DNA of 64,000 nucleotides from Roridomyces roridus (Eukaryota > Basidiomycota > Agaricomycetes > Agaricales > Mycenaceae), in NCBI GenBank assembly GCA_029378245.1, contig JARKIF010000028.1, positions 310,001-374,000 of the forward strand, given 5' to 3'. Both the position numbers and the translations under genes were made by a program. This document shows, one piece after another, positions 18,236 to 57,385 of the stretch. Positions within the stretch are counted from its first letter, which is position 1. Every line of letters starts with the position of its first letter. Below the pieces are notes generated by a model. It was given only the letters and a program-made list of their open reading frames with translations. It was not told where the DNA came from and did not search any database.

Positions 18236-20988
18236 TCACCGCTTCCACTTCCCACTAAGCGTAGCCCCACCGAGTCCTTCACCCGACCCGTTCCCACTGC
18301 CCTCCCCTGAATCCACCTCCACCTCGCCATCCACCTCCATATCCACAACTTCCATCAGCTGCCCACCAGAGGCATGGTGCGATCGTCTACAAACAAGCAG
18401 GCCGTCAGCGTAAAGAATAGATGAGAAGTGAGAAACCGACAACTCACCTCATCGCACCCCCCGCATTATCCTCGACCTCGGTGTCCATCCCTCCATCGAC
18501 GCGTATCCTCGGCGGCGCAGCGTACATCTCATCCACATCGTACCCGTACCCCTCTTCATCAACATCCGCTAGATCGTCTGCAAGTACACCTTCATCCTCA
18601 TCCCCGTGGTGTGCTGCTGCTGCTGCGGTCGGTGGTGCGTCGATGACAATCTCAACGTCCTGTGAGAGAATGGATGTGAGTAAGGGCCGGTGAAGGTGGT
18701 GACATTGAGAATATCGCAAGACGGGCAAGGAATCGCGGAGATCGAGTGGGTGGGCCACCGATAAGCAGAATGCCCGACCACGCCGTGGGAGACATCTGCG
18801 TGTACGCACGGGCGCATACCGCGAAGGGGAGCACGATACGTTGGAAAACCAAAAGCAGGAATCACTCACCTCCTCCTCCTCTTCCACATCAACCTCCACA
18901 TCCTCCTCCAAATCCGCAAACGTCCGGCACAACGGGCAACTGAGCAAAAGTCAGCATGCATGACGTAATCAGATACGCCTGGGGAGAGCGAGTAGGATGA
19001 GGTCGGGAGGACTCGGCACATCGAGCGGCGGGAGGCGCAGCAGGACGCGGGCCTCGACGTCGTTGACAATCAACCGTAGTAGACTCCTCCGCGCGAGCCT
19101 CGCATACATCCTCCCAGCTACACGGCCACACCTCCAAAACCAAAAACTCACCTAAACGCCGGATGATGCGCCTCCAACAACGGCCTCAAGCACTTGTAGT
19201 GGAACGTATGCGAGCACGGAGCGATGAAGAGCGCTTGGCGGATCGATACCGGGAAGAGGCCTGAGGGGAGAGGGTTAGTCGGGGGTGAAGGAGAGGAAGA
19301 AGCAGGAGCGGGAGAGGAGGGAGCGGGAGCATAGCTGGCTCATACACCCGTACGCCCCTCCCAGCAGGAAGTAGGAGGACTCGGCCAGAGACGTCTCTTC
19401 ACCGAGGCCGTGACGTCACCAAGCTCAAGTCGCGCTCTCGGACTCGCACAGTCGCCGGACACGGAGAGGAGCCCGGTAAGAGCCCACGACTGCCCGACAT
19501 GTGCGAGTGGACCGCAGCGATGGTAGCCACGTCGGCGACGACGGGGTGAGCTCGCGCGAGTCACGACCAAAGAGGTGGACGAGGAGCGAAGGTGCTCTCC
19601 CAAGCGACGACCCGCGCTCCCCGTACGCTCCCCAGCACCTCCCTCCCTCCCAAGGAAAACGAAAGAAAGACGAGACTTACATATACAGCAATCAGGTATA
19701 CTGCCCCCACCCAGCGCCTTGCGCTTCGCCTTTGGCTGCGAGGAGGCCCCTTCGGGTCCTGGAAGAGTGACGAGTCAGTATGGATGGGAGACGGAGGGGA
19801 GGAAGACGAAAAAGGAAAGATGGAGTCCACAGGGGTGAGGTAGGAAGACGGTAAGACAAGAAACGGAGAGGGGGGGAAGGATGCAGAATGAGGTAGATGC
19901 AGTACAGAGGAGGAGGGATGGGAAGAGTACGAGCGAGGGAAGGAGTTGGACCGTAGGTAGAAACACTCACCCGTCGCCCCAACCGCGAGCGCCTTAAGAT
20001 TCTTCAAGGCCGTCGTGCTACCATCCACGCTGTCAGCAGCCGCATCCACGGTAAAGAGACAGCACGTACTTGAAAGCATTCGCAGCCGCCTGCCACTCGC
20101 GCCCAAGCTCCACCCGGATCTTGACACTCTTGTATATGTCCTCCGCCCCGCCCTGATAGTCCACGCCCTGGCGTCGATCAGCACCACGCTGGCATGAAAG
20201 AACAGAGCATTACGCACGAGCTGCAATATATCCCCGTCCTTGACCTGATGCGGCCTACTCTCCGTATTCGCCGCACTCAATCGGACATGATTCAAAAACG
20301 TGCCCGAGCTGCTCTTCGTATCACGTATGAAGAACTTGACCGCATCCGCGCCGCCATCCTGCTCCACCCAGATCTCGGCGTGCGCACGGCTAACGACCTT
20401 GCTCTTGAATGCAATCTTGTTCGTGTTGAGGGCGTTGACGGCAGCGAGACCCATTCCACTGCGGTCTGTGAATCGCCCGATTCGGAGGGCTGTGTCGCCA
20501 GCTCGTAGATCACGGGCGATAGCGTCGAAACGCAGCGAGCGGCGTGATTCGAGGTGTGGTACGAGGCGGATGCGGTGTGATGTGCCTGTCCCAGTTCCTG
20601 TGCCAGTAGCAGGCTGATTGGCATTGGCATTGGTAGTCGCGCGAAGCATAGGCTGCGCGGGAATGACGATGGGTGTTGGTGCAGCACTGGCGACATTCCC
20701 TGCACTCCGCCGACGGCGGAGCATGTGGCTCAGCTGGTTAAGACTGCCAGGCGAGCCTTGCTGCTGAGAAGATGGTGACCCAACGAGAGCTTGCATCTGA
20801 GCCTGTCCTGGTCCTCCTCGGCGAGGATTGGGGCTTGGAGGGCCCTGTATCGGTGGTGATGGGCTCATTTCTCGGAGGGGCGCGATCGGGTGGGACTGCG
20901 AGTTGTTGCGTGGGCGGCCACGGAGGAAGGAGCTGAGGATCGTCGTGCTGCGGGGCTGCGTCGGCGGCGAGTCGGCGCCAGACTCCAT
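18236..20988 (-). CDS. FHA-RING E3 ubiquitin ligase, Dma/CHFR type
   Basis: Eight exons on the minus strand (20988-20218, 20167-20070, 20017-19971, 19758-19681, 19260-19152, 18939-18870, 18659-18448, 18386-18236) sum to 1536 nt, 511 residues. ATG 20988 follows CACA. After a Ser/Pro-rich N-terminus the FHA domain reads LRIGRFTDRSG, KVVSRAHAEIWVE and RDTKSSSGTFLNHVRLS, with the phosphothreonine-contact Arg and Ser. The RING is assembled over three exons: PDCCIC-LFPVSIRQALFIAPCSH, TFHYKC and SCPLCR; one Cys codon spans a 420-bp intron. An acidic tail with Glu/Asp runs follows. Proteins of this build act in spindle-checkpoint and septation signalling by ubiquitylating phosphoproteins. Introns of 210-420 bp are long next to the ~50-bp norm here. 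All RING ligands are present, so the gene looks functional. Confidence 0.9.
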
Positions 20989-21380
20989 TGTGGGCGGGAC
21001 GAGGTGACGAGGTGGTGTCACAGTCTTGTCACACAATTGCCTCTTTGAGTTGAAGACCACGACGGACAATGGCGGACACTCGCACTCTTCGTCACTGTGC
21101 GAGCTCCACGGGCTGTATTTCTGGCAGATTGGACCCTGGGCGCTACAACAACAACGAGGCTGTGACTTGATAGATGGGCGCTGTCAACAATGGCGACGGG
21201 CGGCTTGATGCAGGTTTCTCTCTCGCTCTCGAAAAGTTCTGGCGACTTCTGGTCTTCTTTCACGGCTCGTTGCAATGTACAAAAGCAATTCCATCGAACG
21301 GCACAAGAAACAATTTGAAAAATAGCACAGTCGAAGCTCCTTGATTCTGGGATTCGCGCCAAAGCTCAACCCATCGTACA
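20989..21380. promoter_or_regulatory. 5' flank of the FHA-RING gene up to the TIR element
   Basis: About 390 bp between the FHA-RING start codon and the left end of the TIR transposon. It should contain the FHA-RING promoter, so the transposon landed just upstream of it. One further ATCGAACGG motif lies at about 21294. No TATA box stands out. Confidence 0.4.
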
Positions 21381-21450
21381 CACAGGGGGCATCAGCCGTG
21401 GCACTTTTTTTCGTGTGCCAAGGTGGCACTTGGGAGGTAGTTGGCGCGCA
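21381..21450. repeat. Left TIR of the 6.5-kb element
   Basis: Starts CACAGGGGGCA, continues GTGGCACTTTTT, then the perfect 22-bp core at 21411-21432, and keeps GTTGGCGC at matching distance from the end. It contains TGCCA/TGGCA half-sites in palindromic order, a plausible binding site for the element's own protein. Confidence 0.75.
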
Positions 21451-22292
21451 GTCGCCATGTGGGAGCAAAAGCACGTGCCCCGTGACTTACTTGATGTGCG
21501 TGAGTTCGATTCCATGTCCCTGCTTCCATTTTTCTGGCCCAATACATTTGGTGATTATGACCCTCGACAAAGCAGTATAAAATTCATGTAAAATTCCGAT
21601 AGCAATGGTATGCACCCTACACAAATTTAAGACATGATTGGGGGGACATTGGGGGGTGTCCTTGGGGATTTCTGCACCAGGACCCTTACATTTATGTGGA
21701 AAAAAGCAGGACTACAGCCTGTGTGTCATTAACCATAATTTTGTGAATCATCAGAGCCCCATGAAACAATGCTCTTCGGCTTCGACTATCCAACAATCTA
21801 ATGACTTCCGTTAGATTATGTAATGCCCGGCTGGTTGTGAAACCCGGGGAACCGATCAAAATCCCACCGACTGTCCAACTACTTACCAACTACCCGCCAA
21901 GTGCCACGCAAGGGCGCGGTTACGGTGTTTGTGGGATCAAATTCCCATACATGGGTGAAACCCAAAAGGTTTTCATCTATATCAGGATCTGAGCCTTTTA
22001 GGCAAGATCCGATCAGAGCGAGAGCCAAAAAGGCAATCCGGTCGCATGTCATTGTCCGTCAATTCCCGTGACATGGATCCATGTGGTGTCAAGCACCTGG
22101 ATTGAAGTTGCTCTTTCTAGGTCAATTCTGGCTCGATTGCCGAGTTCTAAAAGCTCAAATCAATATTGTAACCTCTGGCACTTGTGCACAGAGTGATCTT
22201 TTCGTATTTGATCATACAAGAGCCACTAGGCCCACTACTTATGTTACATGTACTTCGGGTCACTGTACTACACAAATCCTTCAATCTCTATG

Positions 22293-23171
22293 TCAGTGGC
22301 TCGAGTTAAAAAAAAGAGCACCACATGGGACATCTGCATGTTTGGCAATCCTTCCTTCACACTCCAACCGATTGCAGTCTCTGCAAGGATTTGGACACAG
22401 GTCTTTCCGTGAGGCACCCTTGCAATTGTTCTGACCACATTTGTGACACATTCGTTTTGGTTTTTTGTGTTGACCCTCTACTATGAACATGCTACCAGAA
22501 GTGTCTCTCGATCTCTTCCTTTGGGGCATTTGCATAGATGACGTAGGGGTCGAAACAGCAGGGAACATGAATGAACCGTGCGAGACAAGCTCAGAGGCTG
22601 GTATAGTAGTCATTGCAGATGCTTCAAGATCAAACCCTTGATGAGATGAGCTGCCACCAGACTCCAAATAGCCTCTGTAACTCATGAAGTTCATGGCATG
22701 ATTTCCCGGAGATGTTGAGTCCCACATACTATCCATGGGTGTAATTGTTGAAAGAAAAGATGCATCTGTTGTGAGCCAGGACCTTGGACCTTGGATTCCT
22801 TGATAAGTGGAACTAGGAGGTGCATAGGGTAGGTCATTGGCCAATGATGTATGGTCTGAGCCTATCTGCCAGGACAGTGAAATGTCTGTGGCAGCAGTTT
22901 GTTCCACTGGAATGTGTATCTGTTCAGCTGCTCCTGGAGGCTGATATGCTCGGAAAATGGAATGAGTCGGTGGTTCCAGGGATACCTGTGATTCAGTCTG
23001 ACTGCTGGGTAACATTCCAGTAAGTATGGGTTCCTGCAATGGGACAACTATAGACGGGGCATTGTAAGCCTCAGCTGCACGATTTGCACTGCGCAGCTTC
23101 TTTTCAAGGCTCTTGACAGCGGGAAGGATCTGAGATACTGTATTCTTCTCATTTGCAGAACGAAGCCATTT
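22293..23171 (-). CDS. Cys-rich C-terminal segment downstream of the exonuclease gene's stop
   Basis: In frame with the preceding gene after its TAA (23172-23174), an open frame runs uninterrupted: KWLRSANEKNTVSQILPAVK, a coiled-coil-like KSLEKKLRSANRAAE, a Ser/Thr/Pro-rich linker, a basic KKPKRMCHK patch and a Cys cluster (CHKCGQNNC, CPNPCRDCNRLEC, DVPC) ending at 22293. Spacing C-x2-C-x4-C ... C-x3-C-x2-C-x4-C suggests a second zinc module. The uninterrupted frame suggests it was once, or by readthrough still is, the C-terminus of the same protein. Alternatively it is a separate exon reached by splicing round the stop. Confidence 0.6.
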   Translation of the reverse strand, partial: KWLRSANEKNTVSQILPAVKSLEKKLRSANRAAEAYNAPSIVVPLQEPILTGMLPSSQTESQVSLEPPTHSIFRAYQPPGAAEQIHIPVEQTAATDISLSWQIGSDHTSLANDLPYAPPSSTYQGIQGPRSWLTTDASFLSTITPMDSMWDSTSPGNHAMNFMSYRGYLESGGSSSHQGFDLEASAMTTIPASELVSHGSFMFPAVSTPTSSMQMPQRKRSRDTSGSMFIVEGQHKKPKRMCHKCGQNNCKGASRKDLCPNPCRDCNRLECEGRIAKHADVPCGALFFNSSH

Positions 23172-26100
23172 TTAATGATAGGATTCCAAGTGACTCTCAA
23201 GCTGATAAACATGAATTAGTGATAAAAGCTCAATCCTGCGGTATAATAACACACCTTATAAAACAGAGTTTCACCGTTAGCTGCACTGTTCCATGTGCGA
23301 GCAGCATCTTTGAAATTTGGAGTTGAAGTGAGTGCCTGCATCATGGTTGTGAAATGCTGCTTTTCTTCCACTGAGTGTACTGTGATCACAGCATATTTGG
23401 TGCCTTGTTGCTGTGCAAGAAATGCATGCTTGAACTTCGAGTCCGTTGCCAGACTGTGTGGAAGAATTCCTGCCATGAGTCTGGTCTTCTCTGGCAAAGC
23501 CAAAATGCCAATGGTTTCACCCCCAGGTGTGTACAGAGTTCCATTCATCCAACCACGCAGAACTGGGGCATTTGGAATCCAATGCCTGGCATCATCCAAT
23601 GATTTTTGCAACCTGTTCAAAACCTCTACATTATAATGACCTTGATAATTTTTCCCTGTAAGATTTATAGTTCCAACCACCAGGTTGTGAATAAAAACAT
23701 AGTCTTTGATGCGAGCAGCTGCGTGACGAATTGAGGCTCCAGACTTTGGCATTCGATCTCTAAGACTTTTGTGAATGGATCCCTCAGGATTATTGGTTCC
23801 ACGAGCACAACGGAAGATTGGAAGTTTTGTCTTGCGCTCAATACACATCTGATAATAAAGCTGGACACCCGGTGGATCAGACAACAGTCCCAATTTCATT
23901 GCTTTGAGTACATTTTTTGCATCATGCCAAGCTTGAGCATTGAAGAGAGGCAGGTTGGTCTTTGCATCCTTTTGAGGTCCATACAGGTTGAAAACCTCAT
24001 GAACCGCTTCATACAGCTTATCTGGGGGTGGAACAGTTCTTCGGCATCTACGCCACAGCCAACGGGCATTGAACCAAATCTGATGTTCCCATGATGAGTT
24101 CTGAGTTTTCAGATATGCCTCAATTCTGGCTTTGTCCTCTTCATGTGGAATGAAGATGGCATCTCGCAAGGCAATTCCAAATGGCCGACGCATTCCATGC
24201 TCCTTTGAAGTTTTCACCCGAGCCATTCCATGCCAGATATCCATAATTACTCGGCTCCGGATTTCTAGAGACCAAGTAGAGAATTCTGGATCATTTTCCA
24301 ATGCCTGTATGACTTCTGAAATTATCTGTGTGTGCTGAGAATCCACCAAGTCAGGCTGTGGAGCCACCTTCTGTGAATCAGAATCTGGAGGTGGGCCATC
24401 AATTTCATCCATCCAGCTTGTAGCATTTTCTGCTAGCTCATCAGAACCCCGCTCAAGGAATGTCAGCAGTTCCTGCAGTTCTGGATGGTTGATTGCGGTT
24501 CTAGTTTCCACCTCAGGAGGCTTGCTCTGGGTATCAGAGACTGTTGAACTCAAAGTCAGGTCAGAGTCAGAGGGTTCAGGCACTCGTCTCAGAACCTTGT
24601 TCCGGGCACAAACCAGATCAAATGGCACAGGTCCAAAAGCTTCAAGTGCCTTCTTGTGATGCAAGGAGATAATGGCACCTGGAACACAAACTTCAGTGAC
24701 CGTGATTCGAACCCGTTTGTTTGTGATTGATATGCTGTCATATGGTGTTGTGCTATCCATTGAGATGTGTCCTCGAGCAATGAGTTGACCATCAGTATGA
24801 TGTATTGACACCAGTGTCCCAGGCAAATCAGTCTGTGATATCTTGCCAGGAACTTCAGCTTTTGCAAGGCGATGGTATATATGTAATGATGCCAATGCAT
24901 CCAATGCAGCATATTGGATCTGTTCAGCAGATAATTCACGGTTACTCCAGTTATTGCTGACACGGATGGTGTCTCTACCCTTGTCCAGACTGTTCCCCTT
25001 TACCAGAATCTTGCCCAATATTTGGGCGCACAGGTCTGCCAATCCCATCTGAGCGTTTGTGATCACTCTCGCATCTTTAGCCATTCTAGCTAGATCGAGC
25101 CCACCCTGGAATGGGCCGTTGCCACTCTCCCTTTCCAGCCGTGCCAAGTCTTGCTTGACTGCACGACCAACCTTAATAATTTGATCTGTTTTCAAAAAAC
25201 TAATCAAGGCTGCAGGCAGCTTCCCCTGGAAATGTGCTATCTGGAAAATTGCCACCCAATTTTTATATGCAATTTGTATTATGGCAGTGGCATTTGTAGT
25301 CCTTGAATGGATGTTAACATCCCATTCAGCATCAAATCCGACAACTAGCTTGTCATTGGGATCATTGTCATTCAGGTCACTTGTGATCTTTGCCAGCTCA
25401 TCCTGAATTCGAGCTGCATCCCAGCAAATCCGAACATCAACATCAGCAGGAAGATCAAATGTTGGTAGTCCAGCATATTTCTCAGTGGGAGTAACATCCT
25501 TGGTAAGAGATGGGAAAACACCTTCCAGAAATGCTTTATCTGCAGCAGGGTTGTCTGTGAACACCACTTCTGGCTGAGATAGTCCGTAGAGTTCAAGATT
25601 ACTTTTGACCTTTTCCAAAGCTGATTTAAAGTCTGAGTGGGAGCTTGTAGCCACAAAGGCAAGTACCCGAGCCTCCCCAAATTCATTGGTCAGGGTAAGG
25701 GTTGCCGCAAATACAGATTCTCCATTGATTTTCATGATCTGCTTGGTTGTCTTGTATGTATGATCAATAGCACCAAGTCGTAGACTTTTCATTGCAGCTT
25801 GCTGGTCCATATCAGCACCGTGCTCCTCAATGTACATGTCGTACATAATGCGGAGCCAACCACTACTGGGCACAAATCCGCTATATCCTTTAGGATCATC
25901 AAATGCACTGAATTCAGTGAATAGCAATGGATTGTCTGCAGTCTGGGTCAACTCAGGGTGAGCATTTGCCCAAGCAATGACTCCATCTAGATATTGAGCA
26001 TGCAGTTTGTCGAACTGCAGTCTATGGAGAACTTGAAGACTATTTGAAAACTGCTTGGAACCAAGGCCATAGTGGAACACTGTTCGCATCATTTCAAAAA

Positions 26101-27643
26101 CGGGCTTTGACATAGCCCCTCGGTGACTCAGTATGGCTGGAAATTCATCGCGCAGTTGTGGCGGTAGGCCTTTCATGATCCTTGGATCCCAACTGTTGAA
26201 AGTCACAGTTGGCTTGCCCGTCTTTGATTTGCATTTAGTACAGTGATACCTGCGACCAATCATGTAAAAGCATTCACTCATGTCCGTAACCCGACGAGGC
26301 CGGGTTGAACCATGATTTGTGAGGTGGTGTCCGCATAATGGGCAGTTGATATCAACAAAGAATGAGGGATCCCAGTAGAATAGACGTGGGTTGTACATTG
26401 CTTCCGCACTGGGCTTGACCTTCATGTTTGCATGTGCTTTGTTTCGAAGATCACCCCCAAGAATGAAGATATTGGCCCTTTGTGGAACCCAAAAGGTCTG
26501 GTGGTCTTGATATTGCCTATCTGCCTTGCGCAAGAATTTATCACAAGCGTCCTTGAGAAATGTTGGCAGTGGTTTTCTCTGCTTGCTCTCTGTCTCTGGG
26601 TCATCCTCATCATCACTTTCATCACTGCCTTGACCTCCACCCATGAATGTTGATAGATCATTCATATCTGTGTCCGCTAGGTCAACAATCTGCTCTGGAT
26701 CCATATCCGGAACAACATGGTCAATCCTGGGAGTGGCTAGATCTGGGGAAGCCCCAAGAGATGTTAGAGGCAGAGTGGTTGGACCTGTAGTGGACACAGT
26801 GTGCAGATCTGTGGCAAGAGAAGAAGGACCATGATCTGTAGCCCCTTGTTTTGCCACAAGTCCATATTCTGCAAGAGACCTCTGCCGTCCTGGTTGATCA
26901 GGGACATCTGAGGACCTTGCTAAAGCAGCAACCGGTATACGAGCAATGTGTGAGGGAGTTTCAAGAAGTCCCTGAGAATAGAACCCAAGAGTCAATCCAG
27001 AATGGCAAGTAGAGTGGAGAAGTACTTGCCCGAGGGCCAGCATAGGGTCGGTGAACTGTGGGGTTGGGTGGCCGACCAACCGTCTTTGGTGGATTCTTGG
27101 ACTGGGATTGCTTGGGTTGTGGAGGACGTCCTCTGCGCCGTGCGACTTCTAGCAATGAATCTACTCACCAGTGACATTTGATAAAAAGAAACAAAACTCA
27201 CCACTCTGGCTATCCACAAATGACACTGCTGGATAATTGGACGCGGAGGCATCGGATGGTGGGCCTAGACCAATTTTACATCCCACATGAGTGTAATCAG
27301 GAGTTTCATACCAGGAGTGTTGGTATTTGAGGGCAAATAATGAACTAAGAATCAATGAGCATAATTTTCTGAAGAAAAGGCAATAAGGTACCAAAGCCGG
27401 GAATTTCGGCATCTGGTGTAGCCTCTGTAGCATGGACAGCACTGGATTGACCTATTTTCCATGCTGCATCACTCAATTTCATGGCAGCTAATGGTACTTA
27501 CCTTCGAGATGTCCTGTAGATTGAATAGGCATTGGGCTGGGCTGCAGGTCATTAAAGGTGGGGAGGGATGTGTAGAAGTCATCTGGAAGTGAATCTTCAT
27601 CCTGAAAGTAGTCAGTGGGAGAGTCGGGGGGCTTCTGGGACAT
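23172..27643 (-). CDS. Putative DDE-like transposase with embedded DEDDy 3'-5' exonuclease and AT-hooks
   Basis: ATG 27643 (MSQKPPDSPTDYF). Small exons 27643-27502 and 27451-27392, one near 27344-27312, one near 27264-27200, and one near 27149-27030 lead to a 3.7-kb exon (26971-23255). Intron 26972-27029 is GC-AG. AT-hooks RRRGRPPQP and VGRPPNP lie near 27140-27060. The big exon has a Zn-like cluster (CPLCGHHL ... YHCTKCK, about 26340-26230). Next come an RNase H-like stretch with GAIDHTYK (about 25760) and VVFTDNPAADK (about 25560), and then a complete WRN/DnaQ-like exonuclease: FDAEW (25330), VKQDLARL and YAALDALASLHIYH. C-terminal landmarks are DIWHGMARV and RGTNNPEGSIH (about 23785). I suggest the two Asp and this Glu form a DDE site with the exonuclease inserted between; this is inference. 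After a 23202-23254 intron the frame reads LESHLESYH and stops (TAA, 23172-23174). Confidence 0.7.
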
Positions 27644-27826
27644 GGTGGTAAGAGGGAAGCTCTTATCAGATGGTCTTATTTACAGCGCCCATTGAAAACA
27701 AACATCAGATGAGTGCTTGATAACAAGCCGCCAACACCATCTATGTATAGCCAGTTTTCCCTTTTTCTTTCTTTCCCCTTTCCTTTTTGGGCTATTTTTT
27801 TGTAATTCTTTTGGGCGCCAACAAAC

Positions 27827-27896
27827 ACCATTACCGAGCCCACGCAAGTGCCACCTTGGCACACGAGGCAAAGTGCCATGGCATTTGCCCCCTGTG
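27827..27896. repeat. Right TIR of the 6.5-kb element
   Basis: Reverse complement starts CACAGGGGGCAAATGCCATG and shares the perfect 22-bp core (27845-27866) with the left TIR. The palindromic half-sites are conserved even where spacer bases differ. Confidence 0.75.
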
Positions 27897-28029
27897 ACAA
27901 GTCCTGAATTCTGCTGTACTCACCCCGTCGTCCTGGTTTACTCGACTCGCCGCTCGCAGTTCAAATTGTACTTCAGGGACCTCTACGTTCCTTGGCTCCA
28001 AAACATCCACATCCAGGAAAGAGAATTGA

Positions 28030-44861: not shown

Positions 44862-47800
44862 TCAGGACACGATCTTCCATCGGCCGTTAACCCGTTCTTC
44901 ACGGAGTGCAGTCGGGTTCTTCTCATAGAACTCTTCTATGCATTCCTCTGCTCCATCCAACAAAGCGCGCTTCTCCCAAGTCCATTCAGCCGGGGGATAG
45001 TCCTTCCATTTGATGAAGTAGCGCAATGTGTTGCGTTGATTCCCGCTACCTCTCTTGACTTTCAGGATTTCCTCCACCTCATACTCATAATGACCGTCAA
45101 CCACGTCCGGGGGTGGGGGGTCCACCGCCTTCTGATGCTCGGCCACTGGTGGCACCCATGGTCGAAGATAGACCGTATTGAAAACCGGGTGAACCTTCCA
45201 AGATGCAGGCGTCTTGATTTCGTACAAGAGGGATCCAACCTTGCGCACCACCGGGAAAGGACCATAACGTCGGTCTTCGAATTTCTTGGTGGGTCGGTGC
45301 GTCTGTAGATTCTTCCCTTCTAGCCACACCTTATCGCCTACTTTGTACCCCGGGTCGGGTTGTCGACTACGATCGTAGTATTTCCTCATAACCTCTTGTG
45401 CATGGCGCATTGCCGCCGCAGCTTCTGCCCGTACCTTCTCCATTCGCTGCGCGAATTCCATCGCCTTTTCCGTCGGAACCTCTTGCAATGGTTCAATCCC
45501 TTTGCGCGGGTGGAACCCGAGAGTCATAAAGAAGGGACTGAATCCCGTCGTTGCGTGAACCTTGTCATTGTAGGAGAATTCGGCCAAGGTTAACCATTCT
45601 GCCCAGTCGTCTTGCATGAAGTTGGTAAAGATTCGGAGGTACTGTTCCACCTCTTGGTTGACCCGTTCCGTTTGACCGTCGGTTTGCGGGTGATACGCTG
45701 TCGACGCATTCGACTTCATTCCCAGAAGCTTCATCAGGTCTCGCATAAAGTGGCCCACGAATTGTGTTCCACGGTCGCTGATTACCACCTCTGGTAACCC
45801 GTAATCCTTCCACACATTGTCCCGATAAACCCGGGCGATCCCTTCGCCGGTAATCTGTTCTCGGCAGGGAACAACCCGAATTCCCTTACCCAGTCGATCC
45901 ACAATCACCACAATACTGTCGTACCCCTTGGACTCAGGTAGCTTCGTGATTAGGTCGATCGAGACGTTCTGCCACACTCGTTCGGGTACTGCGTTTGGTG
46001 ACAAGGGTCCGCGGGGTTTGGATGGAAACGTCTTCGTCTTCTGGCACGTCGAACAAGCGGCTACGTACCGCTTGATGTCCCGGGTCATGGATGGCCAGTA
46101 GTAATTCCGCGCTACCAATTCCGCCGTTCGATATTGCCCAGGGTGACCGGCCATGTACGTATCATGGTGGGCCCGGGTTATGTGATGGCGTAGCTCCTTG
46201 TCGGAAGGGACGTATACCGATCCATGCCTAGTCAAGAACCCGTCGTGTTCCTGCCAGGTCGGGTTCTCCTCCTCGGCTTCTTCATCCTTGCTCTTGGCCA
46301 AACCTTCTTTGGCCGCATCCTCCCACTTGTCGTGGGTGTCCTTGATGCGTTGCAAAAATTGGTCCCCCCCCTCCTGTTCTGGGATTGCTCGCAGAAATTC
46401 CTCCTTCGGTATCTGTTGAAATTTATCCGCTGGTAGCAACGTGATATCGCTGTTATCCTTTGCCCCCTTTTCATGGCCATTTCGCCTCGAAAGGGCATCC
46501 GTCTTGTTATGCGTTTTGCCGGGTTTGTGGATCAGCAGAAAGTCGTATTCACTCAACTCCAGCGACCAACGTGCCTGTCTCCGGTTCAGCTTCTTCGTCG
46601 TCATAAAGTAAGCCAGATTCTTGTGGTCCATCCAAATCTCGAAGGTTTTGTTGCTGCCTTGAAGGAAATGCCTCCACCCATACAAACCGCGCATAATCGC
46701 CAGCATTTCCTTGTCGTGAATGTCGTAATTTCGTTCCGTGTCGTTAAGAGATTTGGACAAGAATCCGATCGGGACCCAGACTCCGTTCTGGAGTTGAGAA
46801 AGCACCACTCCGGTGGCGAAATCCGAGGAATCGGCTTCCATCCGCCATTCGCCATGGTCAGTTGGAAAGTGCAGCACCGGTTCGGCGGTGACCAAATCCT
46901 TCAGCGTTTCGAACGCTCTCCTTTCCTCACCTCCCCATCGCCACCGATAATCTTTCCTCGTCAACCGTGTCAGGGGTTTGGAGTGGATCCCGAACCCGGC
47001 AATAAACCGACGGTAGAAGTTGAGGAACCCAAGGAAACTCTGAACCTCTTTGACCGTTTTGGGTTCCGCCCACTCGCGTACCCCCGCAACTTTCACGGGA
47101 TCCATCCGAATTTTTCCATCCCCGATAATCACACCGAGGTATTCGACCTCTCGTTTCTCGAACTCGCACTTCTCGGGCTTCAAGTACAAATCATTGTCCT
47201 GCAGGATCTGCAGCACCTCGCGCACCATCCTCTGATGCTCCTCCTTGTTGGAGGAATAAATCAAAATGTCGTCCAAGTAGACAATAACCCGACCCTCGGC
47301 GATCTGTCGGGCAAAGATGTCGTTCATCATGCACTGGAAGGTCGCCGGCGAGTTCGTCAACCCGAAGAACATCACCAAGGGTTCAAACAGCCCCCGATTG
47401 GTGATGAATGCCGCCTTCTCCTCATCTCCTTCCTTTATCCGAATGTTGTTGTAACCCCATCGTACGTCCAACTTGGTGAACCACGTCGCGTTCCGGAGGT
47501 TGTGCATTATTTCGGAGATCAGGGGAATCGGGTACCGGTTCTTGATCGTAATCGCGTTCAACCTTCGGTAGTCTTGTACTGGTCGAAGTTTCCCGTCTTT
47601 CTTCTTCACGAAAAAGAAAGGAGACGCAAACGGAGACTTCGAGGGGCGTATCCGTCCAGTCTTCAAGTGTTCTGCAATGAACTCGTCCAACTCCTTCTGC
47701 TCTGGGACCGACAGGGGAATAACCCGACCCCGGGCGGGTTCCGCCCCGTCCTTCAGTTCGATAGCGTGGTCCCAACGCTTCCGCTCCGGTAGTTTGTCGA

Positions 47801-48857
47801 AGTCCTTTTTGTCGAAGACACTGCGAAACTCGTCGAGGTAATGGGCCGGCACAATATCCTCCATTGTCTGGTCGCCCTTCGCGTTATGGGCCGCCGCTGC
47901 TAATTTTGTCGCAACCGAACCCACAGCTCGGATATGCTCCGCGTGTTGGGCGTCCTCTTCCTCGTAAATTCGGGTGACGAATACCCGATCGTCGGGTTCC
48001 AACCCATCTTCGTCTTCGGCCTCCCATTGCTTCCAGAGGCGTTCGGTGCGGCACGCAGGCGGGCAGCGAGTAAAGGACAACTTTCCGTTACTCCAGTCAA
48101 TCTCGGGGTTATGCCGTTTCAACCACTTGTACCCCAGAATGACATCCGTCTTCCCGGTATTGGTTAGGGCGAAGGTCATTACTTCCTCATGATCCTCCAC
48201 CGTAGTGCGCATTCTGACCACTTGTCGAATCTTGCCCCCCGCGTTGGGGGTGTTATCCGCGTTGTAGACAGGTACCGGCATCGGAAGATCCTCCACGTCG
48301 AGCCCATGCCTCTCGGCGAACGACTGGTTCATGAATCCTTCCGCGGTAGCCCCAGTGTCCAAAAGCCCCACCACCGTGTACCCACGGAGGCTAGCCAAGT
48401 CCTGCACCACCATAGGGACCATTACTGAAACCCCGCCCATGGCGCGAATGAAGGAAGGCGGGTTTTGCAGCTCTTCAATGGCTGTAAGAGCGTCGGGTCG
48501 GTAGAGACTCAGTAGTTCCTCCACGTATCCTTCGGTAATTTCGATGCGTCGGGTTTTGTACGTCCAATTCTGCAGCATCTCCACTGCGTGCGGACGCTGC
48601 GCGTACATTCGGTCCAGCAGTCGCTCGGCGCTGTTGGGTGGTAGCCCCTTCCACGACGCCTTTGGTGTAGGGGGTACGACTGTAACCTTCTTTCGGGGTA
48701 TCGGCTTCTTACTCCTCCACTCGGGGACAGGAGTGTCGGTTTCTTGTTCGTTGGCCACGATTTGAGAATCTTTGTCGTTCAATAGAGTATGGAATTGATT
48801 AGTGAACGACTTGTGTACATGGGGTATCGAGGAAGACCGGGAGGACGTGGCTTTCAA
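44862..48857 (-). CDS. pol: Pol polyprotein: protease, RT, RNase H, integrase, chromodomain
   Basis: About 1,331 residues, uninterrupted. Order: aspartic protease (LLDTGATAEGFMNQS, near residue 160), reverse transcriptase (DVRWGYNNIRIKEGDE, and the YLDDILIYS active site near 520), RNase H (MEADSSDFATGVVLSQ; DHKNLAYF), integrase zinc domain (HHCC: HPGQYR...CSTCQKTK), DDE core (SIDLITKLPESKGYDS; VISDRGTQFVGHF; HPQTDGQTERVNQEV), a GPF-type module (RRYGPFPVVRKVG) and a C-terminal chromodomain (YEVEEILKVKRG ... YFIKWKDYPPAEWTWE). The frame has no ATG for about 83 codons and begins upstream inside gag in the -1 frame, so it is probably made by -1 frameshifting as Gag-Pol. The chromodomain should steer integration to marked chromatin. 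Confidence 0.95.
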   Translation of the reverse strand: MKATSSRSSSIPHVHKSFTNQFHTLLNDKDSQIVANEQETDTPVPEWRSKKPIPRKKVTVVPPTPKASWKGLPPNSAERLLDRMYAQRPHAVEMLQNWTYKTRRIEITEGYVEELLSLYRPDALTAIEELQNPPSFIRAMGGVSVMVPMVVQDLASLRGYTVVGLLDTGATAEGFMNQSFAERHGLDVEDLPMPVPVYNADNTPNAGGKIRQVVRMRTTVEDHEEVMTFALTNTGKTDVILGYKWLKRHNPEIDWSNGKLSFTRCPPACRTERLWKQWEAEDEDGLEPDDRVFVTRIYEEEDAQHAEHIRAVGSVATKLAAAAHNAKGDQTMEDIVPAHYLDEFRSVFDKKDFDKLPERKRWDHAIELKDGAEPARGRVIPLSVPEQKELDEFIAEHLKTGRIRPSKSPFASPFFFVKKKDGKLRPVQDYRRLNAITIKNRYPIPLISEIMHNLRNATWFTKLDVRWGYNNIRIKEGDEEKAAFITNRGLFEPLVMFFGLTNSPATFQCMMNDIFARQIAEGRVIVYLDDILIYSSNKEEHQRMVREVLQILQDNDLYLKPEKCEFEKREVEYLGVIIGDGKIRMDPVKVAGVREWAEPKTVKEVQSFLGFLNFYRRFIAGFGIHSKPLTRLTRKDYRWRWGGEERRAFETLKDLVTAEPVLHFPTDHGEWRMEADSSDFATGVVLSQLQNGVWVPIGFLSKSLNDTERNYDIHDKEMLAIMRGLYGWRHFLQGSNKTFEIWMDHKNLAYFMTTKKLNRRQARWSLELSEYDFLLIHKPGKTHNKTDALSRRNGHEKGAKDNSDITLLPADKFQQIPKEEFLRAIPEQEGGDQFLQRIKDTHDKWEDAAKEGLAKSKDEEAEEENPTWQEHDGFLTRHGSVYVPSDKELRHHITRAHHDTYMAGHPGQYRTAELVARNYYWPSMTRDIKRYVAACSTCQKTKTFPSKPRGPLSPNAVPERVWQNVSIDLITKLPESKGYDSIVVIVDRLGKGIRVVPCREQITGEGIARVYRDNVWKDYGLPEVVISDRGTQFVGHFMRDLMKLLGMKSNASTAYHPQTDGQTERVNQEVEQYLRIFTNFMQDDWAEWLTLAEFSYNDKVHATTGFSPFFMTLGFHPRKGIEPLQEVPTEKAMEFAQRMEKVRAEAAAAMRHAQEVMRKYYDRSRQPDPGYKVGDKVWLEGKNLQTHRPTKKFEDRRYGPFPVVRKVGSLLYEIKTPASWKVHPVFNTVYLRPWVPPVAEHQKAVDPPPPDVVDGHYEYEVEEILKVKRGSGNQRNTLRYFIKWKDYPPAEWTWEKRALLDGAEECIEEFYEKNPTALREERVNGRWKIVS

Positions 48858-50185
48858 TCCCGGTCGTTGGAAAAATCCTCTGGGGACTCCTCTTCCGAGT
48901 TCTCTTCGGTGTCGGGTTCTTCCACCATGGCACGGAACTGCGTGGTGACGTGTGCATGGGTCGGGCAGTTGCGACGAATGTGCCCCTTGAGCCCACAGCC
49001 ATAGCAGTGAACTTCGCTGCTAGGTTGACGACGGCCCGTATTCGTACGATCAATGTCCATGGGGGCCGAGACATTACTGGCAGTCGTAGCGGTGCTGGTA
49101 CGTACGACGGGGTTGCTGGTATTGCTTCCTGAAGCGTTCGTGTTCGTGCGTTGGGTGCCGAATCGGTTGAACCCTTCCGTGCGATTGAACCCTTCAGGCC
49201 GTTTCGGGTTCTGCATCGGGTTCCGTCCCCCGCCTCCGTACGACCCCGAGTTGGGGTTTCCAGCTTTCCCGAATCCCGCTTTATCCCCCGTCAAAAGGGT
49301 ATTCTTCAGGACCCGGAACTGCCTCTTGAGCCCATCACGTTTGATGGCTTCTTCTTTCCACTCTGCATAGGTCTTGGGGAGTTCTCCGTTAACTCCCTCG
49401 TAAATCGATTCCACCACTTCTTGATTGAGGCCCGTTTTGAGGAGTCGGATAAGCGTGGTATCGTCGTATCCCGCCGTCCTGTTGTACGAATCGAGAATGG
49501 TGAAATAACTCGTAGCCGTACCATTCGCCTGCCGAAGGTGTTCCATCTTGGATTGGGCCTCCTCCACCTGGGCTCCTCCTTTGAAGCTGGAGATAATGTC
49601 GGCCTCGAACGCCGCGTAGGTGGTATAAGCGCCAGTGCCGCTGCCGTTGCGCATGGCCTTCACTACGTTCTCTGCCCAGATTGCCGCGGACCCTCCTTTC
49701 ATGTAAGACAGGGTAAAATTGATCTTGGCGGAGTCCTTGTCGTATACGGGGTTGTCCTGGAAGTTGAGGTAGCAACCCGCCAAGAACCCGTCCACGGTCT
49801 CGGCAGTCCCCGAAAAGTCGGCCGGGGCAGCAACCCGCGCTCTGCGGGATTTATCGCCACTTCCCTGCTTCGCGTCCAACTGATTCTTCAGTATGTCCAA
49901 CATGACACTGTTGGTCTTCGCAATGTGATCCTCCATCATAGAGATGCGTTGAAATGCATCCTGGAGATCGTTCTGGAGGTGCAAGACGCCGGCTTGCAAC
50001 CCCGCCTCGGGGTTCCCGTCTGGTCCCCAGATTTCCGTCAATAGCCCGCGAGTGGCGGCACTAAGCGCTTCAGCGCGATCGAATATGTGGGCTTCGCGTG
50101 CCATTTGATCCAATCCTTGGTAGTGGGTGGCGTCCGTCGACTGGAACGCATCCCGGTTCGGTATACCCAGTGCGGTAAGGTCCAT
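48854..50185 (-). CDS. gag: Gag protein with CCHC zinc knuckle
   Basis: The ATG at 50185 (MDLTALGIPNRDAF) is the first in frame after the LTR; the frame is open back into the LTR but without ATG. The protein is 443 residues. A central gag-like region (FLAGCYLNFQDNPVYDKDS, FTLSYMKGGSAAIWAENV, YFTILDSYNRTAGYDDTT) is followed by an Asn/Arg/Gly-rich linker and one zinc knuckle CYGCGLKGHIRRNC (C-x2-C-x4-H-x4-C). An acidic end (EEPDTEENSEEESPED) closes it, with TGA at 48854-48856. It forms the particle shell and binds element RNA. The pol frame overlaps its 3' end in the -1 frame. Confidence 0.92.
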   Translation of the reverse strand: MDLTALGIPNRDAFQSTDATHYQGLDQMAREAHIFDRAEALSAATRGLLTEIWGPDGNPEAGLQAGVLHLQNDLQDAFQRISMMEDHIAKTNSVMLDILKNQLDAKQGSGDKSRRARVAAPADFSGTAETVDGFLAGCYLNFQDNPVYDKDSAKINFTLSYMKGGSAAIWAENVVKAMRNGSGTGAYTTYAAFEADIISSFKGGAQVEEAQSKMEHLRQANGTATSYFTILDSYNRTAGYDDTTLIRLLKTGLNQEVVESIYEGVNGELPKTYAEWKEEAIKRDGLKRQFRVLKNTLLTGDKAGFGKAGNPNSGSYGGGGRNPMQNPKRPEGFNRTEGFNRFGTQRTNTNASGSNTSNPVVRTSTATTASNVSAPMDIDRTNTGRRQPSSEVHCYGCGLKGHIRRNCPTHAHVTTQFRAMVEEPDTEENSEEESPEDFSNDRD

Positions 50186-50218
50186 CGTTTCGTTCGGTCG
50201 AGTGTTCGAGTAAAGGGG

Positions 50219-50228
50219 AGACGAATCT
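50219..50228 (-). other. Self-primer binding site
   Basis: AGATTCGTCT (minus sense) begins two bases after the 5' LTR end. It is the exact complement of AGACGAATCT at 50350-50341 in the LTR, at the predicted RNA 5' end. No match to initiator-Met tRNA is seen at this place. This is the arrangement used by Tf1-type elements. Confidence 0.75.
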
Positions 50229-50230
50229 TT

Positions 50231-50602
50231 TGTCAGCACCTAGGGCTAAGTCGGGTTCTAGTCAGTAACGAACGAAGCGACCGAGCGAAGAGCAGCAGAC
50301 GAGACTCAAGAGGTAGAGCAAGCCGTAGGGAGAATAGACTAGATTCGTCTACAGTACTGAGACTGTAGACAGGTATATATACTACATGATCGAATTAAGT
50401 ACGAGGAGGTAGGGGGTAGGAGCAGGGGCGATCACGACAAGTAGGGGTTTAAATGCAGGGGAGAGTGGATTAGCAAGCAGGGGTTAGCAGGGGTTGAGAC
50501 AAGACCCGGCTAATCAGTGATGATCACTGATTAGGGTATTGATGGTGGATGATTGATCGGGTTACAACCCGTCGGGTTGTTGCCTGGGGTCATATCATGA
50601 CA
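50231..50602 (-). repeat. 5' LTR of the gypsy element
   Basis: TGTCATGATATGACC...GGTGCTGACA in the minus sense. TATATATA lies at 50381-50374. A 9-bp hairpin (GTCTACAGT/ACTGTAGAC in the solo copy; one mismatch here) follows, and AGACGAATCT starts at 50350, 31 nt after the TATA start, which I take as transcription start. Confidence 0.93.
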
Positions 50603-54832: not shown

Positions 54833-57385
54833 ATGGTTAGCACACTCTGCCATGAATCTCGCAGAAACGGCCACTACTTAGTTGCTTCAGGTGGCACTGG
54901 TGGTCCCGGTGGAGTGGGCGACGGAGATGGAGGTCCTGGCAAAGGAGGGACCTTGATTTATGGAAGTCAGATCACCAACTTGAAGTAAGTTCTTGGTGTT
55001 TCCGCAAGAGTCACATCTCACTGTGTGCAGCTTCCATTTGCATAGCCATGAACCAAGACAGCAAGGCAAAATGGCACTTATCAGTATGTACCAACCTGAA
55101 ATAAAATCTCTGGAGCTCTAAGTGGAAATTCACAGCTCAGGAACAATCCCACACTGCTCTGGCCCTTGTCAGATGCCCTCCAGCATCTCAGATCTTCCAG
55201 GGCCGACAGGAAATTCTGGATAAAATGCACCACTACTTTTCCCAAGAACCCAAGAAGAGAAGGATTTTTGTTCTTCATGGTCTTGGTGGGTCTGGGAAGA
55301 CTCAGATAGCTTTGAAATTTCTTGAGTCATGCAATGAGTAGAAACTCTCAAAAATGGGGTTTCATGATGGCTCACAAACTTTTCTAGGGATACAAGGCAA
55401 TTCTTTGTGAATGCCAGCTCTTCTGACAATCTGAATGCCTCCTTTGTGAACATAGCAATTTCTCAAGGGTTTGGAAAAACAGCAGAAGCCGGTCATCAGT
55501 GGCTTATTTCCAAACACATGAAGTGGACTCTGCTCTTTGATCATGCAGATGATCCAAAGTTGAAGTTGTGGCCATTTTTGCCACAATGCACCCATGGGAA
55601 TATTATCATCACTTCCAGAAACCCTCAACTGGCTGCTCTTGGCCCTGATGCTCACTCCAGTGTTGGGGATTTGGACAAGGAAGATGCTGTTTCCCTGCTG
55701 CTTTCAAGAGCAGTCAAGAACCACACAGATGAAACCCACCAGTTGGCAACTGCCATTGTACAGGTAGGTTCCAAGTTCCTCAATAATTTTGCACTCAATC
55801 AGGATACACAGGAGCTCTCATGCCTGCCTCTGGCAATTGTCCAGGCTGGGGCTTATATTGCCAAGTTCAAGTGTCTCAAGAATTATCTGTCTATCTACCG
55901 GCAGAACAACGGTACCAAGAGGCAGAGGGGCTTGAGCTTTCTGTGCTCCAAGGGCGCCAGAAACTCCTCGGCGATGACCATCCTGACACTCTGTTTGCAA
56001 TGGCCAACCTTGCAGCCACATACGGGCCCCTGGGACGGTACCAAGAGGCAGAGGGGCTGGAACTTTCGGTGCTTCGAGGGCACCAGGAACTCCCCGGCGA
56101 TGTCCATCCTGACACTCTGTTTGCAATGGCCAACCTTGCAGCCACATACAGGCATCTGGGACGGTACCAAGAGGCAGAGGGGTTTGACCTTTCTGTGCTC
56201 AGAGGGCGCCAGAAACTCCTCGGTGATGACCATCCTGACACTCTGGTTGCAATGGCCAACCTTGCAGCCACATACGGGCCCCTGGGACGGTACCAAGAGG
56301 CAGAGGGTTTGGAACTTTCGGTGCTCCGAGGGCGCTGGAAGCTCCTCGGTGATGACCATCCTGACACTCTGTTTGCAATGGCCAACCTTGCAGCTACATA
56401 CTGGCAACTGGGACAGTACCAAGAGGCAGAGGGTTTGGAACTTTCGGTGCTCCGAGGGCGCCGGAAGCTCCTCGGTGATGACCATCCTGACACTCTGTTT
56501 GCAATGGCCAACCTTGCAGCTACATACTGGCAACTGGGACAGTACCAAGAGGCAGAGGGGCTTGAACTTGTTGTGCTCCAAGGGCGCCAGAAACTCCTTG
56601 GCAATGACCATCCTGACACTCTGTTTGCAATGGCCAACCTTGCAGCCACATACAGGCACCTGGGACGGTACCAAGAGGCAGAGGGGTTTGACCTTTCTGT
56701 GCTCCAAGGGTGCCAGAAACTCCTCGGTGACAACCATCCTCACACTCTGTCTGCAATGGCCAACCTTGCAGCCACATACAGGCACCTGGGACAGTACCAA
56801 GAGGCAGAGGGGCTTGAACTTTCTGTGCTACAAGGGCACCAGAAACTCTTTGGCAATGACCACCCTGACATGCTGACTGCCATGGCCAACCTTGCAGTTA
56901 CATACGGGGACCTGGGACGGTACCAAGAGGCAGAGGGGCTTGAGCTTTCTGTGCTCCAAGGGCGCCAGAAACTCCTCGGTGATGACCATCCTGACACTCT
57001 GTCTGCAATGGCCAACCTTGCAGCTACATACAGGCCCCTGGGGCGGTACCAAGAGGCAGAGGGGCTCACCCTTTCTGTGCTCCAAGGATACCAGAAACTC
57101 TTTGGCAATGACCACCCTGACATGCTGACTGCCATGGCCAACCTTGCAGTTACATATGGGGACCTGGGACGGTACCAAGAGGCAGAGGGGCTTGAGCTTT
57201 CTGTGCTCCAAGGGCGCCAGAAACTCTTCGGTGACAATCATCCTGACACTCTGTTTGCAATGTCCAACCTTGCAGCCATATACAGGCACCTGGAACAGTA
57301 CCAAGAGGCAGAGGGGCTTGAACTTTCCATGCTACAAGGGCCCCAGAAACTCCTCGGTGATGACCATCCTGACACTACGAAATGA
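54833..57385 (+). pseudogene. NB-ARC/TPR (NLR-like) gene with frame break between the domains
   Basis: ATG 54833 opens MVSTLCHESRRNG and a Gly-rich GGTGGPGGVGDGDGGPGKGG segment typical of fungal NLR N-termini. After intron(s) between 54985 and about 55140 comes the nucleotide-binding domain: RCPPASQIFQGRQEILDKM, P-loop HGLGGSGKTQIALKF, then (50-bp intron 55338-55387) FFVNASSSDN, Walker-B-like WTLLFDHADD, IIITSRN, and (48-bp intron 55764-55811) LSCLPLAIVQAGAYI. The frame then runs into LKNYLSIYRQN at about 55910. The TPR array follows in another frame, and the winged-helix part normally between them is absent. A deletion with frameshift is the simplest reading, so the full protein cannot be made; a short NB protein could be. 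Fungal NLRs act in self/non-self recognition. Confidence 0.75.
55911..57376 (+). repeat. Tandem 126-bp TPR-coding array, 11.6 units
   Basis: Units start at 55911, 56037, 56163, 56289, 56415, 56541, 56667, 56793, 56919, 57045, 57171 and (partial) 57297. Each encodes 42 residues of the kinesin-light-chain TPR type, e.g. RYQEAEGLELSVLQGRQKLL, GDDHPDTLFAMANLAATY. Units are highly alike in DNA, which points to recent unequal exchange. Because 126 is a multiple of three, stop-free readings also run through the array in other frames on both strands. The coding frame is the one that runs 55820-57385. Confidence 0.93.

Follow-up and report, generated by a model that had tools for sequence, protein, structure and literature searches.

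What kind of element carries a 3'-5' exonuclease inside its presumed transposase, and where does that element begin and end? The question is raised by positions 21,381 to 27,896 of a 64,000-nucleotide stretch of the Roridomyces roridus genome (GenBank assembly GCA_029378245.1, contig JARKIF010000028.1, forward-strand positions 310,001 to 374,000; hereafter the window). A preliminary description, made from the sequence alone, took the locus for a single transposon whose long inverted ends enclose a gene for a DDE transposase containing a complete DEDDy exonuclease. The locus consists of two nested transposons: the inner, of 5.9 kb, is very probably a DDE transposon related to Dada and MuDR, with a transposase fold split by a WRN-like exonuclease, and it sits inside a ~580-bp element with CACTA-type ends.

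The inverted repeats reported around the gene do exist, with arms at 21381-21437 and 27840-27896 that are 57 nt long and 84% complementary. Their 22-bp core and the flanking ACA duplication are likewise real, but all of these are features of an outer element and not the bounds of the exonuclease transposon. The 90.8-Mb genome (501 contigs) was searched with 80 bases from each end, keeping the best 40 of 130 candidates for the left end and the best 40 of 84 for the right; each query matched at least 40 places. Among the matches listed, the best-matching left and right ends pair ~570-595 bp apart with the exonuclease gene absent between them. The CACAGGGGGCA repeats are the bounds of a ~580-bp element, many copies of which lack the exonuclease gene, and its parts in the window are as follows (no strand assigned).

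21381..21912, left part of the outer element (CACAGGGGGCA end), contiguous with the right part in other copies
27849..27896, right part of the outer element (TGCCCCCTGTG end), from genome matches and other copies
21378..21380, copy 1 of its 3-bp target site duplication ACA, from the 3-bp duplications of the family and the C179 segment that lacks the element
27897..27899, copy 2 of the same duplication, from the 3-bp duplications of the family

The 20 stretches fetched for the outer element represent 19 copies besides the window, and full-family copies align to window positions 21381-21915 and then directly to 27840-27896. A perfect 3-bp duplication is found in 16 of the 19 copies with both ends readable, the window counted (L023, its left end unmatched by the pattern, is excluded, L017 and L018 count as one, and the misses are L021, L025 and L028). 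At C179, a paralogous segment joins window position 21380 straight to 27898, with 88.6% and 90.1% identity on the two sides; it is an empty site for the outer element. CACTA-type elements are recognized by CACNN ends and a 3-bp duplication. The outer element has CAC...GTG ends and the 3-bp duplications in common with them, so that we take it to be CACTA-type; a transposase of its own was neither sought nor found, and as judged from sequence it fits a non-autonomous, CACTA-like element.

Two further observations concern this element and its surroundings. An open reading frame with an FHA domain (19561-21069) adjoins it, and the segment of that frame recurs at C179 without the insertions. Besides the window, one outer-element pair is unusually long at 6.8 kb (C323:71475-78236, L017/L018); this copy is split at the window equivalent of 21655-21659 by ~6 kb, with a 5-bp overlap, which suggests another nested insertion.

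The exonuclease gene has ends and a target duplication of its own within the outer repeats.

21913..27840, no strand assigned, exonuclease transposon of 5,928 bp inside the outer element, with the same boundaries in C23, C475, C334 and C35
21913..21935, plus strand, left terminal inverted repeat GGCGCGGTTACGGTGTTTGTGGG, 19 of 23 bases matching the right end
27818..27840, minus strand, right terminal inverted repeat, GGCTCGGTAATGGTGTTTGTTGG on the minus strand, from the end-pattern search and alignment of ends
21905..21912, no strand assigned, copy 1 of the 8-bp target site duplication CACGCAAG, from flank comparison of copies
27841..27848, no strand assigned, copy 2 of the same duplication, from flank comparison of copies

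Of the 19 further copies of the outer element that were fetched, 10 contain, letter for letter, the uninterrupted site expected from joining the flanks with a single CACGCAAG. Empty sites, which the preliminary description had proposed looking for, were thus found for both elements. The gene itself recurs, as expected of a transposon gene: among the matches listed (best 37 of 56 candidates scored) there are six near-identical copies, the window included, and four more diverged ones. Those at C23, C97, C475, C334 and C35 are 99.8-100% identical to the window per aligned piece, and their match to it ends at 21913 and/or 27840; the copy at C23 differs from the window transposon at 7 of 5,928 bases. 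The outer CACAGGGGGCA ends are absent from the gene-copy flanks read, at both ends of C23, C475, C334 and C35 and at the right end of C97, C101, C392 and C157. A search for copies sharing the outer ends finds those ends at many places in the genome, but not around the gene copies whose flanks were read.

A single 6.5-kb transposon, bounded by the CACAGGGGGCA repeats and carrying the exonuclease-transposase, would account for the repeats that surround the gene and for the ACA at both sides. It fails to explain why the repeats form a ~580-bp element that lacks the gene, why the repeats are missing from the flanks read of other gene copies, and why the gene has, between the repeats, ends and an 8-bp duplication of its own; given the uninterrupted copies of the outer element, this reading was rejected and keeps practically no credence. 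Capture of a host gene by chance between unrelated repeats is no better placed. No point in its favor was found, the gene is multi-copy, near-identical and equipped with its own ends, and copies with target duplications exist, leaving this explanation with next to no chance of being correct.

The ends define a family well beyond the gene copies. With up to two mismatches, the end pattern matches 46 places in the genome, as opposed to one for the reversed control, which rules out a chance inverted repeat (5 of these matches, those with two mismatches, may be unrelated). Among 16 elements with paired ends, nine have perfect 8-bp duplications, all nine different, four match at 7/8 and one at 6/8. 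The 16 pairs amount to 14 sites because C35 and C475 have common flanks, as do C481 and C124:44184-68065; for ends 21-24 kb apart (C157, C124) the pairing is assumed, and 14 unpaired end matches are excluded (C12, C35:1198755, C57, C78, C79, C97, C101, C162, C223, C342, three at C356, and C392). Six ~1-kb elements have 35-127 bp of the left end and 68-88 bp of the right end in common with the transposon, and the one at C68 a further ~200 bp. At C124:44184-68065 (L070, L071), two matching ends are separated by 24 kb; their duplication is 7/8, and their flanks recur around a 1.6-kb element at C481. This may be one long element or a small one that has taken up a large insertion. Targeting of RNA genes was also considered and rejected, since Rfam at gathering scores gave no match in 20 loci with transposon ends, a search liable to overlook a small RNA gene that the insertion has divided.

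The gene lies on the minus strand and seems to continue through introns on both sides of its large exon. The following features, all on that strand, combine exons and protein domains.

23216..27079, main open reading frame of 1,287 codons, from the list of open reading frames
23255-26971, product of the large exon, whose apparent end at 23255 is drawn from splice-like sites and similarity to P0001
about 27040-27650, putative upstream exon(s), AT-hook-like, with limits drawn from the same two sources
within 22293-23201, putative downstream exon(s), with limits drawn likewise
22305..22487, C-terminal Cys cluster of the presumed last exon, matched by P0001 1424-1484 in tblastn
25928..26428, DUF6729 (PF20499), Pfam E 5e-19
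26231-26344, Cys4 cluster C210/C213/C244/C247 within DUF6729, from conservation in alignment A4
25502..25792, predicted first half of the transposase RNase H-like fold, from a sub-threshold MULE match, Asp conservation and strand order in the model
25763-25765, D403
25553-25555, D473
24854..25471, inserted DEDDy 3'-5' exonuclease, with D547, E549, D608, Y687 and D691
23582..24250, predicted second half of the transposase with a helical insertion, from A4 conservation and the model
24230-24241, DxxH
23783-23785, E1063

In the 23255-26971 product, the motifs stand at residues 402 (IDHTY), 471 (FTDN), 546 (FDAEW), 606 (KQDLARL), 687 (YAALDAL) and 1057 (RGTNNPEG), and Pfam, whose scan numbers residues with an offset of 36, also recognizes DNA_pol_A_exo1 (E 7.4e-17). 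The AT-hook-like sequences noted earlier, RGRPP and GRPPNP, are present but belong to the upstream exon, in a frame other than that of the main open reading frame.

Three homologue searches, with ~8,000 candidates scored in each, returned 60 different relatives. The closest proteins are from Mycena and other mushroom-forming fungi; a single Rhodotorula is among the named relatives, the others of which are presumably all mushroom-forming fungi, and P0060 is a distant relative. P0004 and P0012 were rejected as exonuclease-free transposases: residues 351-661 and 370-674 are skipped, and the exonuclease Pfam match is missing, because they are gapped gene models. Of 21 pattern stretches inspected as possible viral relatives, none was confirmed.

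Conservation was read from a 40-row alignment (A4) that includes partial proteins, with counts taken only over rows that have a letter. The two Asp residues proposed as DDE ligands are invariant (D403 34/34, D473 39/39), as is the Glu that RGTNxxEG had been suggested to supply (E1063 36/36). The DxxH motif at 911-914, overlooked in the preliminary description, is nearly so (D911 36/37, H914 35/37). All the exonuclease ligands expected there are retained, with E549, D608, Y687 and D691 at 40/40 and D547 at 37/40 (three Asn), and the zinc-type cysteine pairs are kept as well (C210 31/32, C213 29/31, C244 32/32, C247 30/32). Motifs, predicted structure and structure search agree on the order D473, exonuclease (501-706), D911xxH914, which puts the exonuclease between the second Asp and the Glu, as had been proposed. 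All five ligands of the three Exo motifs (D, E, D, D, Tyr) are present together with the fold, and motifs and model indicate a complete WRN-like DEDDy domain between the second D and DxxH. A DDE-like transposase is strongly supported by the predicted protein, and the order of strands and helices in the model suggests that the three acids share an RNase H fold. No transposase appears among the 50 rows of the structure search; exonuclease matches fill the list, which therefore says nothing on the DDE part. Against diverged copies in the same genome, the ratio of nonsynonymous to synonymous change (dN/dS) is 0.09 (C168) and 0.10 (C157) in the first half of the transposase and 0.06 (C168) in the second, and the exonuclease has proportions of nonsynonymous and silent differences (pN, pS) of 0.17 and 0.77-0.78 against C168 and C157, with silent sites saturated.

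Several observations weigh against this picture. The MULE match, which spans D403 and D473, is below threshold (19.3 bits against a cut-off of 27.6, E 0.0016) and appears in only 3 of 40 homologue rows at E 0.01. The model has a predicted TM-score (pTM) of 0.68 and places E1063 in a low-confidence stretch (model residues 871-874, per-residue confidence pLDDT < 50). Against the distant copy at C223, dN/dS rises to 0.22 for the second transposase half, and the exonuclease has pN 0.41 and pS 0.84, with silent sites saturated. Two of the 16 paired-end elements have no clear duplication, namely C168, in a GT repeat, and C157, with extra bases. The window copy may itself be defective: a stop codon at 23172-23174 cuts its presumed last exon ahead of the C-terminal Cys cluster, at a position where the remaining five near-identical copies encode an amino acid. 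Finally, not every relative that spreads seems to need a catalytic exonuclease in cis, as the following sister family illustrates.

C334:70838-76764 and C257:565812-571738, copies of the sister family (L058, L105-L108), with GGC ends

This family occupies six places in the genome, the query counted, at 99-100% identity over 920-924 bp. Its ends, in the two of six copies examined, are GGCTCATTACTC... and GGCTCATGTCGT..., with an 8-bp duplication ATGCATCA at C334 and none found at C257. The two Asp regions, DxxH and RGTNxxEG are retained. Its exonuclease has Ser in place of D608, and no alignment was obtained for motifs I and III, as read from one copy in three forward frames, from which a short exon could escape. 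A second diverged relative, L055, has Ala at D608. A 40-row tree built on the C-terminal half joins the two exonuclease-degenerate rows (100/100) but does not place the pair among the rest. Because a family with such recent copies has a degenerate-looking exonuclease, exonuclease activity would not be strictly required in cis.

These relatives, along with the Asn at the first Asp in 3 of 40 homologues, are what one would expect if the exonuclease acted on something other than transposon ends, for instance as a structural insert, as a DNA-binding part or against host repair. The conservation of its ligands throughout the main lineage is hard to explain without catalysis, and we regard such a role as possible but rather doubtful. 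In the nested-transposon reading, the 5.9-kb DNA transposon jumped into the ~580-bp element. Its transposase, of the cut-and-paste kind, would bind the 23-bp GGC ends, cut them by means of D403, D473 and E1063, and insert with an 8-bp stagger, which would produce the 8-bp duplications observed; it probably also mobilizes the ~1-kb copies with the same ends. The exonuclease would most likely trim 3' ends exposed in transposition, a role that Kojima and Jurka suggested for the Dada exonuclease (PMC3706591). Such trimming could take place during excision.

Elsewhere in the window, a long tetratricopeptide repeat open reading frame with 12 TPR_10 stretches lies at 55820-57385. The frames at 44862-50239 belong to a retrotransposon with gag, protease, reverse transcriptase, RNase H, integrase and a C-terminal chromodomain, presumably of Ty3 type by its domain order.

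A single genome offers the transposon with its ends and 8-bp duplication, recent copies that are near-identical, ~1-kb derivatives that could serve as reporters, and a natural exonuclease-degenerate relative. With all these parts together, a direct test of whether a built-in exonuclease shapes excision becomes possible. The locus also puts in question the membership of exonuclease-bearing elements in Dada, a superfamily described by its RNA-gene targeting.

The "unusual machine" of the preliminary description is present but not new: an exonuclease within a transposase was published in 2013 for Dada-1_LB and Dada-2_LB of Laccaria bicolor and Dada-1_ES of Ectocarpus (Kojima and Jurka, PMC3706591), a precedent which that description had missed. 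Those elements and the present transposon both have a DDE triad whose second D is followed by DxxH (a motif that Dada has in common with MuDR, PMC3706591), a DEDDy exonuclease lodged between that D and DxxH, a D-D spacing of 70 here and 68 as published, introns, and an N-terminal Cys4, although C210/C213/C244/C247 are spaced unlike the published C389/C394/C429/C432. Duplications are 8 bp here as opposed to 6-7 bp (an apparent 8 bp was discussed for Dada-U1, with 6 preferred), 23-bp inverted repeats are present here and absent from the U6 and U1 families, and ~1-kb derivatives occur here. The nine perfect targets are varied, with the window copy in a repeat element, in contrast to small nuclear RNA and tRNA genes; all Dada with clearly definable termini lie inside small RNA genes (PMC3706591). 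The C-terminal zinc finger of Dada is CCHC; the cluster at 22305-22487 appears, by eye, to be Cys-only with no His at the published spacing.

Whether these differences merely widen Dada, making this a standard member of its exonuclease-bearing subgroup, is evenly balanced: domain order, D-D spacing, Cys4 and the 8 bp discussed for Dada-U1 speak for it, while duplication length, inverted repeats, varied targets, the lack of an Rfam match and the Cys-only cluster speak against. The termini of the fungal exonuclease-bearing Dada are not given in the available part of PMC3706591, and no animal or Laccaria Dada is named among the 60 relatives returned; the comparison with Dada draws on published descriptions. 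Because termini, duplication length and targeting are all unlike published Dada, it is called only Dada-like, on its predicted protein, and not a tested member. A separate superfamily-level lineage, with GGC ends, untargeted 8-bp insertion and a split-domain excision-trimming machine, whose exonuclease-degenerate members would do without trimming or borrow it in trans, is a tentative and less probable proposal. What is apparently new is the combination of inverted ends and varied 8-bp targets, unlike described Dada, and the sister family with a degenerate-looking exonuclease. The word exonuclease does not occur in a 2022 paper on fish Dada (PMC8869645) or in PMC12730594, and in the available parts of these and of the open-licence papers PMC3985635, PMC6431247, PMC4482050, PMC9179366, PMC3441728 and PMC11139960 no exonuclease inside a transposase is described.

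The transposon also resembles MULE/MuDR in its sub-threshold MULE match, DxxH motif and 8-bp duplication, and differs in that this match is below cut-off and in its inserted exonuclease and DUF6729. Target duplications of MULEs range from 8 to 11 bp. Other mobile elements carry exonucleases too. DEDDy exonucleases are mentioned for giant rotifer retroelements (PMC6431247), and ISL2EU (PHIS) elements are, like this one, DNA transposons carrying an exonuclease, but one of the YqaJ kind encoded by a second, separate open reading frame (PMC4482050 and PMC9179366) rather than a DEDDy domain inside the transposase. In WRN-type proteins, the exonuclease is joined to a helicase, whereas here it is inserted in a transposase.

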